Origin: Desulfobaccales bacterium
GTDB taxonomy: Bacteria > Desulfobacterota > Desulfobaccia > Desulfobaccales > 0-14-0-80-60-11
DNA length: 32,494 bases
NCBI GenBank assembly: GCA_037481655.1
Contig: JBBFLF010000028.1
Span: 1 to 32,494 of the forward strand
Reading direction: 5' to 3'
In this document: positions 62 to 4,623 of the stretch, one piece after another
How the letters are laid out: each line of letters opens with the position of its first letter
Numbering within the stretch: the stretch's first letter is position 1
Notes under the pieces: model-generated
Told to the model about the DNA's origin: nothing
Seen by the model: only the letters and a program-made list of their open reading frames with translations
Database searches by the model: none
Position numbers and translations under genes: made by a program

Positions 62-736
62 CTAAAAATATCCCATGGCCCGGAGGCGTTTCATGATTTC
101 TTCTTTGTTTTGGTCGCGGCCGGCCCGTTCGGCGCCGTCGGGGGCGCCCATTTTGGTGCAGGGGGCGCAGCCCAGGCTGCGGTAGCCTTTGTGGTAGAGG
201 CTGCAGTAGGGCACGTTGCGGCTGCGGATGTAGGACCAGATGTCCAGTTCGGTGAAATGCAGGATGGGTTGCACCCGGGTATGGGGCGGGGTGTCGTAGG
301 GTTCGAAGTAATCCACCTTGGCCCGCTCGGGTTGCTCGTCCCACCTCAGGCCGGTGATGAGGGCCTGCCAGCCGTATTTGCGCAAGGATTCGGCAATGAC
401 CCGGGCCTTGAGCTGGAAGCAGCATTCGGCCTTGTCTTTGGCGATCTCGATGGTTTTTATGGCCTCTTCGTTTCTTTCGATGCGCAGGTCGAGGCGCCAT
501 TCCCGGGCGAGGCGGTCCCGGAATTCGTAGATTTCCGGGAATTTCACCGAAGTGTCGATGTTGAGGACCGGGATGGGGACCTCGCCGCCGCACAGGGTTT
601 TCAGGAGGTGCAGGGTGGTGGTGGAGTCCTTGCCGCCGGTCCAGGCCAGGGCGATGGTGCCGGGGAAGCGCTCCAGGGCTTCCTTGAGCACCGCCTGGCT
701 TTTGGCCACCTTTTCGTCCAGGGTTTTTAATGCCAT
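62..736 (-). CDS. PP-loop ATP pyrophosphatase with mixed CysD/CysH features
   Basis: A 224-residue member of the PAPS reductase/CysD superfamily. The ATP-binding PP-loop is WTGGKDS at residues 32-38. Residues 59-79 (NIDTSVKFPEIYEFRDRL and on) and the tail GRDQNKEEIMKRLRAMGYF resemble sulfate adenylyltransferase subunit 2 (CysD). However, it also carries the cysteine pattern that binds 4Fe-4S in APS reductases: C105-C106, then C190 and C193 as CAPC. The catalytic ECGLH tail of CysH reductases is absent, so simple PAPS/APS reductase activity is doubtful. The ATG at 734-736 follows an AAGGGA ribosome site. It is the last gene of the minus-strand run, 43 nt after a sulfatase-like gene. A role in activating sulfate or a related adenylylation or thiolation is inference; the superfamily assignment is secure. 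Confidence 0.8.
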   Translation of the reverse strand: MALKTLDEKVAKSQAVLKEALERFPGTIALAWTGGKDSTTTLHLLKTLCGGEVPIPVLNIDTSVKFPEIYEFRDRLAREWRLDLRIERNEEAIKTIEIAKDKAECCFQLKARVIAESLRKYGWQALITGLRWDEQPERAKVDYFEPYDTPPHTRVQPILHFTELDIWSYIRSRNVPYCSLYHKGYRSLGCAPCTKMGAPDGAERAGRDQNKEEIMKRLRAMGYF

Positions 737-779: not shown

Positions 780-2108
780 TTACACATTTTCCATCATCTT
801 TTTGAGAATCTCTACTCGAGCACCCATTTCGGGTTTCTGGGCGAGATTTTCGCTTTCCTGAAAATCCGTTTTCAGATCATAGAGTTCCAGGCGCCCATCC
901 TGCCATTCCACCAGTTTGAAAAGGTCCTGGTCAATGAGGGCACGGCAGGGTTGCATATAGGGTTCAAAAGGCAGCGACCGTTTTTCCCGGTTTTGGCGCC
1001 AGATATCAAGGTCGATATTTTCCACCCGGACCAGCTCCCGGGAAGGGCTCAGAAGGGAAATGGAGCTCATGGGGCGGGGAAGGGGGGCGCCGCTTACCTC
1101 CAGCAGGGTGGCATAGAGGTCATGGAGCTGGGTAAGGGAGGGGGTGCGGCCGCTTAATCCGAATTCCTGGGGATATTTGATGAGCAGGGGAACATGAATG
1201 ACCTCATTGTAGACTGTGAAGATATGACCCGAGTGGCCATGTTCTCCGAAGGCCTCACCGTGGTCTGAAGAAATGATGAACATGGTGTCCCGATCCAGAT
1301 GGTGCTTTTTCAAAAAAGTGTAGAAATCATATATTTGGTCATCCAGGAAGGCGATTTCCTGATCATACAACAAAGCTTCACGAGAAGTCATGCTGCGGTT
1401 GTCTGCAAATCTCTGTCGGTATTTTTTGGGAGGATTGTACTTGATATGAGCCTCCATGACATTGATAAAGAGAAAAATTTGTCGATTCCTCATTTTTTTA
1501 AATATTTTTTTGGCCAGCAAGAACGTCAGCCTGGTGACATGGTATGATTTATTCAGGCAATTGCCAAACATCTTTCGATATATTCTGTCAATAAGATGTA
1601 ATAATGGATATTGGTAATATCTTTGCTGAAAAGAATTCCTTATTATAAATAATACTTCCTGCCAGGTTTTTTGTGATTTGTTCATTTTTTTAAGATTATA
1701 TCTCATATTACAATATCTATCATTGTTAAAAATAGTGTCCATATCATAATATTTATTAAATCCATGATTGAATCTCCAGAGACGAGAAATGAAATAATTG
1801 CTGGAAATGCCGACAGTGTAATAGCCCATTCCCTGTAAGATTTCCGGCAAGGTGTAAAAATTTCCCTGAAAAACCAGATCCTCCACCCTGCATTGGTGCT
1901 CACTGGGATAGAGGCCGGTAAATAATGACGCATGGGAGGGCAATGTCCAGGAGGCAGGGGCAAAACAGTGCTCATAAAGCATGGCCTCCTCGGCGATGCG
2001 CCGCAGGCCAGGGGTGGTATCCCGGGGATAGCCGTAAAGCGAGCAGTGTTTGGCACCCACCGTGTCCATAATGAGCAAGACAATGTATTGCGGTGGTGCC
2101 ACGTTCAT
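780..2108 (-). CDS. Sulfatase-like hydrolase (alkaline phosphatase superfamily), second of tandem pair
   Basis: A 442-residue predicted hydrolase or transferase. The N-terminal metal aspartate is D15 in LLIMDTVG. The nucleophile region is SWTLPSHASLFTG, which places Thr55 where formylglycine sulfatases have Cys; the later metal motif is SDHGEAFGEHG. True sulfatases need that Cys or Ser converted to formylglycine, whereas threonine at this site is typical of phosphatases, phosphodiesterases and phosphoethanolamine transferases of the superfamily. No signal peptide or membrane anchor is visible. The ATG at 2106-2108 overlaps the upstream stop as ATGA and has GGAGGT just before it, so the two copies are translationally coupled. 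The central third (about 1430-1800) is strikingly AT-rich: 1681-1740 has 12 G/C in 60 bases. The substrate is unknown. Confidence 0.85.
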   Translation of the reverse strand: MNVAPPQYIVLLIMDTVGAKHCSLYGYPRDTTPGLRRIAEEAMLYEHCFAPASWTLPSHASLFTGLYPSEHQCRVEDLVFQGNFYTLPEILQGMGYYTVGISSNYFISRLWRFNHGFNKYYDMDTIFNNDRYCNMRYNLKKMNKSQKTWQEVLFIIRNSFQQRYYQYPLLHLIDRIYRKMFGNCLNKSYHVTRLTFLLAKKIFKKMRNRQIFLFINVMEAHIKYNPPKKYRQRFADNRSMTSREALLYDQEIAFLDDQIYDFYTFLKKHHLDRDTMFIISSDHGEAFGEHGHSGHIFTVYNEVIHVPLLIKYPQEFGLSGRTPSLTQLHDLYATLLEVSGAPLPRPMSSISLLSPSRELVRVENIDLDIWRQNREKRSLPFEPYMQPCRALIDQDLFKLVEWQDGRLELYDLKTDFQESENLAQKPEMGARVEILKKMMENV

Positions 2109-3487
2109 GCCGATACCTCCTGGGCAGACAGGGTGAGGTCGTCGGCCGGGAGGGGGCCCAGGCGCAGGGTGAGTTCCTGTTGCAAGGCGGCGAGCCGGGT
2201 CTGCCACCGGGGCTCGGCCGCAAGGTCGGTGGTTTCGCCGGGGTCGGCGGTGAGGTCGTAAAGCTCCCGGCGGCCGTCGGCCCACTCAATGAGCTTCACC
2301 CGGGCCGCATCAATCACTGCCCGGCAGGGCTGCATATGGGGCTCGATGGGTTTGCCCCGGGCCTTGAGGTATTTCACCGTGGTGGCCACATCCAGGTTTT
2401 CCACCAGGGCCAGCTCCCGGGGGGAGCCCAGTAGGGAGACGGAACTCTCCGGCAACGGCAGGGGAGCCTGCACCGCCTCCAACACGGTGGCATAGACGTC
2501 ATGCAACTGGGCCACCCGGGCGTCACGGCCTGCCTGCCCGAAGGCGGCCGGATATTTCACCACCAAAGGAATGTGAATGATCTCGTTGTACACACAGAAC
2601 ACATGGCCCCGGCAGGCGTGCTCCCGGAAACCCTCGCCATGGTCCGAGGTGATGATGAGCAGGGTCTCTTCCGCCAGGCCCTGGCGTTCAAGAAAAACGT
2701 AAAAATCATACAACAGATGGTCGAGAAAGGCAATTTCCTGCTCATAGAGAAGTTCATCCTGAGAGGCTTCCCCGGCGTGGCGGGCCAATAGGTGGCGAAA
2801 ATTCTTGGGCGGGTTGTAGTTGGTGTGGGCCTGCATAAAATTAAAAAAGAGAAATAATCTCCGATCTGCTTTTTGGCGAAAGACTTTCTTGGCAATATTG
2901 ATGGACCGTTGACTGGCAAAATAACATTTGTTAATGACATCCCCCCGAAATTTCCGGTAGATTCGGTCCAGAAAATGATAAATCGGATAAGAATAGTATT
3001 GGTTTTGCCAGGATTTTTTCAGGATCAGGGCGATCTCCTGCAAGGTCCGGGAATGGTTTTTCTTTTCCTCCTTGATCTCCCGCCGGGTCTGCCAGTAGCG
3101 CTCGTCGGTGAACAGGGTGTCCATCTCATAAAATTCATGGAAGCCGTGGTGGAAATTGGCGGCCCGGCTGATGAGGTAATTGCTGGAAATCCCTACGGTG
3201 TGATACCCCAGGCTCCGGAGAATCTCCGGCAGAGGGTAGTAATTCCCGGGGTAGAGGAGATTATCGGTGGTGCAGCCGTGCTGGCTGGGATAGAGGCCGG
3301 AAAACAGCGACACGTGGGAGGGCAGGGTCCAGGAGGAGGAGGCGAAGCAGTGCTCATAGACCACCGCCTTATCGGCCAGGCGACGCAAACCCGGGGTGGT
3401 GTCCCGCCGGTGGCCGTAAAGGGAACAGCGCCCCGCGGCCACCGAATCCATGACAATGAGGATGATGTGAGGCAGATCCGTCATCAT
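2105..3487 (-). CDS. Sulfatase-like hydrolase (alkaline phosphatase superfamily), first of tandem pair
   Basis: A 460-residue paralogue of the next gene, matching it along its whole length. Metal-binding D14 lies in LIVMDSVAAG, Thr54 occupies the nucleophile position in SWTLPSHVSLFSG, and the second metal motif is SDHGEGFREH. It shares the phrases LYG(H/Y)xRDTTPGLRR, YEHCFA, HTVGISSNY and MQPCRA(V/L)ID with its partner. It is less AT-rich in the middle than the second copy. The start is uncertain between ATG at 3487 and ATG at 3484, since AGAGG lies immediately upstream and fits 3484 slightly better. There is a 59-nt gap after the methyltransferase stop. It probably acts on a phosphate or sulfate ester, perhaps at the cell surface, but no export signal is visible. 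Confidence 0.85.
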   Translation of the reverse strand: MMTDLPHIILIVMDSVAAGRCSLYGHRRDTTPGLRRLADKAVVYEHCFASSSWTLPSHVSLFSGLYPSQHGCTTDNLLYPGNYYPLPEILRSLGYHTVGISSNYLISRAANFHHGFHEFYEMDTLFTDERYWQTRREIKEEKKNHSRTLQEIALILKKSWQNQYYSYPIYHFLDRIYRKFRGDVINKCYFASQRSINIAKKVFRQKADRRLFLFFNFMQAHTNYNPPKNFRHLLARHAGEASQDELLYEQEIAFLDHLLYDFYVFLERQGLAEETLLIITSDHGEGFREHACRGHVFCVYNEIIHIPLVVKYPAAFGQAGRDARVAQLHDVYATVLEAVQAPLPLPESSVSLLGSPRELALVENLDVATTVKYLKARGKPIEPHMQPCRAVIDAARVKLIEWADGRRELYDLTADPGETTDLAAEPRWQTRLAALQQELTLRLGPLPADDLTLSAQEVSA

Positions 3488-3546: not shown

Positions 3547-4623
3547 TCAATCCTTCCTGCCGATCCAGAGGAGATTGCGTCCCAAATCCAGTCGATGGGC
3601 CAGATATCCACATGCGCCATTCACCGGGAAAAGGAACATCCGGCGGAGCAAGGGCAAGACGCGCCCTGAGTGGGGGCTTGTGGTGCGGGGCGCAGGTCGG
3701 CGCTCTTCAGTGCCGGAGTAATGGAGGGGCTCCGGTCGTTCCAGCAGTTGTTGCAGAGGCCCTTTGAAATTCGGGCGCAGCCAGCGGCAGAAAATCTTTT
3801 TGAGCGATTTCCCCGCCGGGATATGCAGGTAATCATAATCCAGATGATGGTGGAAGATCTCGCCAAAGCCCTCCTCGGTCATCAGGGTCCGCAGGCTGGC
3901 GAGGGAGAAATAGGAGAGATGTTCCCGGTCAAAGAGGCGATGGGGCTGCTTTTCAAATCGGGCTCCCCAGGAGAAGATATCCGGCACTTCCACCACCAGG
4001 TAGCCCTCTGGCCGCAAGGCCCGACGCAGGCGGGCCACCGCCTGGCGCGGGTGGTCCATATGCTCCAGAACATGGAACATACATATGGCGTCAAAGGCCT
4101 CATCCTCCAGGGTCGCCTCCTCCAGCAACGTGGGGATGACCTGAAGGCCCTTCTGCCGGTGGCGTGCCACCCCTAAGGGCGAGGGTTCAACCCCCAGGAC
4201 CGTGAAGCCTTTCTTTTTAAGCACGGCCAGGAAATCTCCTTCAGCGGAGCCGATCTCGGCCACGGTGCCTGAGGTCAGCCGGGTGTGGGTGAGAAAATAT
4301 TTCACCCGCAGGCGAAGGTTGGCCAGGTAGGCCCGGGCCTGGTCCCGGGAAGGCGGAGGCGCGGCCTCCCGGGTCCGCTCATAATGCATCTTCAACCCTG
4401 CTGGCGAGACGGGGGTGGCGACCTGAACAAAGCCGCACCCGAGGCAGCGGGCGATTTCGATTCCCTCCCAATATACGAGGGGGCGCCTGGCGGCATTGCC
4501 ACATAAGCGACAGGATCTGGCGGCAGAGGCTGCCACCTCCGAGGGATGGGACCGCGGCTCAGGTGCCATAGATTGCCTTGGATGATCTTGGAGTACCGCC
4601 GGAAGCGGACACGGCCGGGTCAC
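3547..4623 (-). CDS. Class I SAM-dependent methyltransferase with N-terminal zinc ribbon
   Basis: A 358-residue protein. The N-terminal part has two CxxC pairs (C38/C41 and C60/C63), a zinc ribbon like those in sugar C-methyltransferases. A Rossmann methyltransferase domain follows, with motif I VAEIGSAEGDFLAVL near residue 120, GVEPSP after beta-2, and the acidic/H region FDAICMFHVLEHMDHP. This arrangement is frequent in enzymes acting on nucleotide sugars or surface glycans. The GTG start at 4623 overlaps the ymdB stop as GTGA, with AGGAGG 10 nt upstream. An ATG at 4569 giving 340 residues is a reasonable alternative because the extra N-terminus looks unconserved. Its position ahead of two sulfatase-like genes suggests a shared role in modifying a surface molecule; this is inference. 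Confidence 0.85.
   Translation of the reverse strand: MTRPCPLPAVLQDHPRQSMAPEPRSHPSEVAASAARSCRLCGNAARRPLVYWEGIEIARCLGCGFVQVATPVSPAGLKMHYERTREAAPPPSRDQARAYLANLRLRVKYFLTHTRLTSGTVAEIGSAEGDFLAVLKKKGFTVLGVEPSPLGVARHRQKGLQVIPTLLEEATLEDEAFDAICMFHVLEHMDHPRQAVARLRRALRPEGYLVVEVPDIFSWGARFEKQPHRLFDREHLSYFSLASLRTLMTEEGFGEIFHHHLDYDYLHIPAGKSLKKIFCRWLRPNFKGPLQQLLERPEPLHYSGTEERRPAPRTTSPHSGRVLPLLRRMFLFPVNGACGYLAHRLDLGRNLLWIGRKD

Follow-up and report, generated by a model that had tools for sequence, protein, structure and literature searches.

The window analyzed here, a stretch of 32,494 nt from a Desulfobaccales bacterium, encodes on its minus strand (positions 62–736) a PP-loop protein of 224 aa that belongs to the CysD/CysH superfamily and combines an ATP-type PP-loop with the CC and CxxC cysteines of APS reductases, while lacking the ECGLH tail. 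We propose, with a probability of roughly 0.45, that this protein is an adenylyltransferase from the CysD lineage that works without CysN, probably carries a [4Fe-4S] cluster, and activates sulfate or a similar oxyanion for polysaccharide modification. The adenylyl transfer in this proposal is suggested by the residues and the relatives of the protein, and the use for surface sugars, together with a partner enzyme, by its gene partnership. Below, the short form represented by this protein (P0001) is denoted A-type (16 rows of a 54-row alignment), with two outlying pairs, A2 and A3; relatives of CysD length with the four cysteines are denoted B-type (17 rows), and relatives without them C-type (5 rows).

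The A-type protein and its PP-loop

The gene at 62–736 reported in the first-pass annotation is confirmed, and its strand, which had not been named, is the minus strand. The protein scored 144 bits against the PF01507 (PAPS_reduct) model, above the Pfam gathering cut-off of 22.5. Among the NCBI models, the CysD model NF003587 ranked first (138.6 bits, cut-off 195) and the CysH model NF002537 second (118 bits, cut-off 154); the scores for the CysD model TIGR02039 (96.3 bits, cut-off 396.6) and the APS reductase model TIGR02055 (93.2 bits, cut-off 235.3) also remained under the cut-offs. Judged by these curated thresholds, it belongs to neither CysD nor CysH. According to phmmer, the solved structures closest in sequence are CysD (1ZUN), two APS reductases (2GOY and 7LHR) and FAD synthase (E 1e-13).

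The PP-loop is of the ATP type (TGGKDS, residues 33–38, positions 623–640 of the minus strand; site table of the 54-row alignment). The motif [ST]GGKDS is present in all A, A2 and A3 rows except for one, which reads SFGKDS, whereas in the CysH rows K, D and S are replaced by L/M, E/N and D/G, respectively. The GKDS of the PP-loop, K110 of CC-x3-K and ERxGR are also invariant in a separate alignment of 19 sequences, A1; GKDS and K110 had gone unmentioned in the first-pass annotation. According to the site table, K110, ERxGR and the GY[FM] end are common to the A-type and CysD. In the window, ERAGR (residues 203–207, positions 116–130, minus strand), which is found in CysD and partly in CysH, is followed by a GYF end and not by ECGLH; the C-terminus reads KRLRAMGYF, so that the catalytic cysteine of the ECGLH tail is absent. 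The first-pass annotation had described residues 59–79 and the last 18 residues as CysD-like. The former indeed closely match CysD 1ZUN; of the latter, ERxGR and the terminal GYF agree, but the remaining residues differ. It had also noted that the ECGLH tail is missing, and this is correct for the A-type protein, whereas the tail is present in the CysH rows.

Four cysteines at the positions of cluster ligands

On the minus strand, the codons of C105-C106 (positions 419–424) and the C190-x2-C193 motif (positions 158–169) specify the two halves of a presumed [4Fe-4S] ligand set. In APS reductase, CC and CxxC bind a [4Fe-4S] cluster. That the four cysteines reproduce this pattern, as had been claimed from the sequence of the window, is substantiated by the phmmer alignment, in which they pair with CC and CxxC of the Pseudomonas aeruginosa APS reductase 2GOY, and by their invariance among the relatives. 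They are the only invariant cysteines in alignment A1, with no fifth, and all four are kept in each of the 37 A-, A2-, A3- and B-type rows; therefore, the motif is not due to chance. The three canonical CysD rows retain only the C190 position, and the C-type rows have none of the four cysteines (4 of 5) or a single one (1 of 5). Conversely, the CysH rows keep the four cysteines and carry an ECGLH-type tail, but have lost the K-D-S residues that mark the ATP-type PP-loop. Since the window protein has kept the cysteines and the ATP-type PP-loop and lacks ECGLH, it resembles an enzyme that uses ATP and has a cluster site rather than a reductase. The alignment thus agrees with the earlier description of a protein with cysteines at the cluster-ligand positions but without the reductase cysteine, and, given the ATP-type PP-loop, adenylylation is favored among the functions that had been suggested.

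An AlphaFold model of the A-type protein, built from alignment A1, had a mean pLDDT of 90.8 and a pTM of 0.89. With VIA-align, it matched yeast PAPS reductase (Z 24.7), 2goy (Z 23.5), 1zun (Z 22.2) and FAD synthase (8ron_D, Z 21.7), whose fold it shares, and the sulfur transferases NcsA, LarE and TtuA scored lower (Z 13–14). The model thus shows the general superfamily fold, which does not discriminate between functions. It is quite unlikely that the protein is a sulfur transferase like TtuA, NcsA or TtcA, in which ATP would activate the substrate and the cluster would carry sulfide. The combination of a PP-loop with a presumed [4Fe-4S] cluster and the structural kinship with TtuA (5b4f, Z 13.3) and NcsA (6scy, Z 14.0) are compatible with such a role, but the protein is far closer to CysD, CysH and FAD synthase (Z 19–25), and a fifth, catalytic cysteine is missing beside the four invariant ones, whereas thiolases of the TtuA/NcsA/TtcA type use three cluster ligands. 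Three ligands are also given for DndC in the part of the report available to us (PMC10853773). In the neighborhoods that were read, neither a cysteine desulfurase beside an A-type gene nor dnd genes were noticed.

Relatives and ancestry

The A-type is rare: at E ≤ 1e-40, 12 of 395 genomes from the phylum have it. The named short-form relatives come from metagenome assemblies of Syntrophobacterales, Deltaproteobacteria and Candidatus Desulfofervidaceae. In the tree, which contains no FAD-synthase row, the A-type is placed outside the CysH clade, although a grouping of A with CysH was not rejected (p-AU 0.077). One clade of A, B and CysD was not rejected either (p 0.31), and the deep branching order is unsure because of long branches. 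Canonical CysD is nested among the B-type proteins, where three CysD rows and three B rows form one branch (support 100/97), and holding B together without CysD was marginally rejected (p-AU 0.04). On this tree, the four-cysteine state requires two changes.

The one B-type member tested, L037, exceeds the CysD subfamily cut-off (354.6 versus 195 bits) and is followed by a gene for a CysN-like GTPase that scores slightly below the TIGR02034 cut-off (326.4 versus 336.1 bits). A cysN-like gene follows in most of the B-type loci that were read; proteins of CysD length with CC and CxxC are found at L037–L051, L070 and L072, mostly beside such genes. Because the motif runs through the B-type and canonical CysD nests there, the cluster motif is probably ancestral in the family and was later lost from canonical CysD. 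As judged from these sequences, CysD may have started out as an iron-sulfur protein. Two ideas of the first-pass annotation are not supported by this comparison: that the enzyme is an isolated oddity, given B-type sisters that include proteins encoded beside CysN-like genes, and that it joins CysD ends to an APS-reductase motif, as the 17 B-type rows carry the same cysteines. A chimeric origin, with CysD ends fused to the core of an APS reductase, was rejected, since the motif spans the whole B-type group, within which canonical CysD is nested.

Two further relatives were observed. A viral contig (IMGVR_UViG_3300014887_000002; L030:2977-5158) carries a gene for a B-type CysD-like protein; the product encoded 0.5 kb downstream of it has a weak PF01663 match below the cut-off. 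At L068:1330-1908, a gene for a degenerate PP-loop relative of 192 residues, with GDKES and one Cys of CC, overlaps a flippase gene.

Partnership with alkaline-phosphatase-superfamily genes

Two genes for proteins of the alkaline-phosphatase superfamily (PF00884, "sulfatase-like") precede the A-type gene on the minus strand of the window. Protein 1 (459 aa, positions 2105–3484) and protein 2 (442 aa, positions 780–2108, no leader) both contain WTLPSH; their genes share an ATGA overlap, and the gene of protein 2 ends 43 bases upstream of the A-type start. In another genome (G002), a single sulfatase-like counterpart, of protein 1, overlaps the A-type start by 4 bases. All three PF00884 genes of the window's genome lie within 1.8 kb of its two A-type genes. 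Across the 16 carrier genomes, 17 of the 34 PF00884 or PF01663 genes are located at most 5 kb from an A-type gene; 0.17 would be expected if the genes were placed evenly, a rough value only, since operons and clusters are disregarded and one genus contributes three of the genomes. Such a gene is present within 5 kb at 14 of the 20 A-type loci and missing at the other six, namely those of G003, G011, G065, G067 and G314 and one of the two G014 loci. Among the B-type loci L037–L051, 13 of 15 have a PF01663 gene over the cut-off nearby, two of them barely over it, and L043 and L051 have none.

In the window-type partners, the domain begins at the start of the protein and a leader is absent, and the Thr of WTxPSH is invariant (5 of 5) at the position where sulfatases carry the cysteine that becomes formylglycine (FGly). 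The leaderless start and the Thr suggest that these partners are probably cytosolic enzymes of the phosphoryl- or sulfuryl-transfer type. The structural model of the alkaline-phosphatase-superfamily neighbor was poor (pLDDT 66). Within the gene of protein 2, positions 1400–1770 form an AT-rich stretch in GC-rich surroundings.

The partnership also bears on a second type of adenylyltransferase. An enzyme acting like FAD synthase, which would serve a polysaccharide by producing an ADP-linked sugar, polyol or other phosphate instead of APS, is unlikely. FAD synthase is near in both sequence and fold, C-type relatives without the cysteines were found in similar loci, and the PF01663 partners belong to the phosphodiesterase/nucleotide pyrophosphatase class, all of which would fit; nevertheless, ERxGR, the tail and the B-type sisters indicate CysD, albeit with a tree that lacks FAD synthase.

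Genomic setting of the A-type loci

Several A-type loci are surface-polysaccharide clusters with Wzx flippases, and Wzx, Wzz/Wzc and Wza neighbors recur at several loci. The window's genome has two PF01507 matches: the gene in the window and, on contig C10, a paralog with 70% identity to it. This paralog is located between a gene for a UDP-sulfoquinovose-synthase-like enzyme and a Wzx flippase gene, with Wza and Wzc upstream, and it immediately follows the synthase-like gene in three genomes of the genus. At L060 and L062, a flippase-like gene comes directly after the A-type gene (the one at L062 without a Pfam match at 1e-5), and a reading of the neighbors places L036/L078, L064, L065 and L066 inside glycan clusters. 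The setting of the window copy is different: it comes after rny- and ymdB-like genes, together with a SAM methyltransferase gene (PF13489, positions 3547–4623, minus strand), a probable member of the same minus-strand run whose link is uncertain. These surroundings are no clear glycan cluster, which speaks against the proposed role, as do two A3-type loci that are near dxs and have no alkaline-phosphatase-superfamily partner.

Other features of these loci were seen in passing. The distant A3-type members at L081:7568-10548 and L082:2972-10530 are located by xseA-, ispA- and dxs-like genes, as named from reading the sequences, outside glycan loci. The gene of a PP-loop protein resembling WbuX/N-acetyl sugar amidotransferase (L079:17722-18714; 156.9 bits, cut-off 203.2) shares its cluster with an A-type gene. 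The UDP-sulfoquinovose-synthase-like enzymes at L053:7868-9073 and L100–L105 have GTMGVYG for GTMGEYG, that is, a substitution at the E147 position, and possibly make a different sugar product. Loss of E147 impairs Agl3, according to the part of that study available to us (PMC4388408).

Sulfate-pathway genes in the carrier genomes

The 23 PF01507 matches in the 16 carriers comprise 20 of the A, A2 or A3 type, one of the C-type and two with weak scores of 40.9 and 29.4 bits. Canonical CysD and CysH are absent from the carriers. CysN over the cut-off was found in none of the 16 (best score 112.5 bits), a cut-off that the CysN-like partner of L037 also just misses. Of the 16 carriers, 15 have Sat, six have APS kinase, and five have sulfotransferases of the two families searched, PF00685 and PF13469. 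Nine of the 16, including the window's genome, lack APS kinase and both sulfotransferase families, so that ordinary PAPS-based sulfation cannot be completed there. With neither APS kinase nor a PF00685 or PF13469 sulfotransferase in the organism of the window, PAPS-dependent sulfation was rejected there as the ordinary route.

These counts also concern a reductase-like function, in which APS from Sat would be converted to sulfite without a catalytic cysteine of the enzyme's own, for delivery to the UDP-sulfoquinovose-synthase-like enzyme. The retained CC...K...CxxC of APS reductase, the near-universal Sat and the position of the paralog right after the synthase-like gene would agree with this function, but it is unlikely: the ECGLH cysteine is missing and the PP-loop is of the ATP type, the synthase-like protein, at 440.6 bits, falls short of its cut-off (575) and carries V in place of E147, and the synthase-like gene shows no overall link, with 7 of 16 carriers versus 5 of 12 non-carriers. 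The same distribution, together with the fact that the gene adjoins only one paralog, weakened sulfite supply for sulfoquinovose as a general role.

Proposed mechanism

For the preferred adenylyltransferase, the reaction would proceed as follows. ATP would be bound in the TGGKDS PP-loop, and AMP would be placed on sulfate, most likely, or on a chemically similar oxyanion, with pyrophosphate being expelled. The putative [4Fe-4S] cluster next to K110 would assist anion placement, a role that has been proposed for the cluster of APS reductase. With this product and the alkaline-phosphatase-superfamily partner in the cytosol, a surface-polysaccharide precursor would be modified, which the Wzx flippase would subsequently export. 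Further points argue against this proposal: with Sat in nearly all carriers, a second sulfurylase could be redundant; without CysN, the pull on the unfavorable sulfurylase equilibrium stays unexplained; the protein scores under the CysD cut-off; and nine carriers have no complete route of ordinary PAPS-based sulfation, as judged by APS kinase and the two sulfotransferase families.

A more far-reaching version, which we regard as improbable, is a sulfation independent of both PAPS and sulfotransferases. Here, the cluster-bearing CysD-like enzyme would form an adenylyl-sulfate-type intermediate, the cytosolic partner with Thr in place of FGly would use it to sulfurylate a lipid-linked sugar that Wzx would then flip, and the iron-sulfur form of CysD would be the ancestral one.

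Should the form with four cysteines be ancestral, sulfate activation (CysD) and sulfate reduction (CysH) parted ways in an enzyme that already had the cluster, and what the cluster of APS reductase does, which is poorly explained, could be studied in an enzyme that does not reduce. Furthermore, the recurrent pairing with sulfatase-like genes in the absence of APS kinase or the searched sulfotransferases suggests an undescribed modification of surface sugars.

Comparison with known systems

The family is already known. In the literature search, as far as the texts were available to us, we found no description of CysD as an iron-sulfur protein, and nothing on a CysD with CC and CxxC or on a pairing with sulfatase-like genes. 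The PAPS-reductase-like domain of FAD synthase/FMN adenylyltransferase (8ron, 3fwk) shares the fold and the ATP-type PP-loop with the A-type, but has, to our knowledge, no CC and CxxC, and the gene context of the A-type is different. NodPQ and additional cysDNC copies resemble the A-type genes in being dedicated extra sulfate-activation genes in glycan loci, as exemplified by nodP-nodQ at L112 and by second copies of cysC, cysN and cysD in the sulfated capsule cluster of Vibrio KMM 8419, according to the accessible part of that report (PMC11641403). However, these systems use CysN, APS kinase and sulfotransferases, which were not found in the window's genome (PF00685 and PF13469 having been searched). 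CysH (2GOY) has the fold and the [4Fe-4S] positions of CC-x3-K and CxxC in common with the A-type, which differs by the lack of the ECGLH cysteine, the retention of K-D-S in the PP-loop and its position outside the CysH clade. The likeness to CysD (NF003587, TIGR02039; 1ZUN) extends to K-D-S of the PP-loop, the DT...KFPEIYEFRD block, K110, R131/D133/E134, ERxGR and the terminal GY[FM]; in contrast to CysD, the A-type is about 43–77 aa shorter, remains under the CysD cut-offs, occurs without CysN and keeps all four cysteines rather than only the C190 position. The B-type CysD-like proteins of Geomonas, Syntrophorhabdus, Bathyarchaeota and others share with the A-type the four cysteines and the frequent alkaline-phosphatase-superfamily neighbor, and are set apart by insertions that bring them to CysD length, by a usually cysN-like neighbor and, in the member tested, by a score that passes the CysD cut-off.
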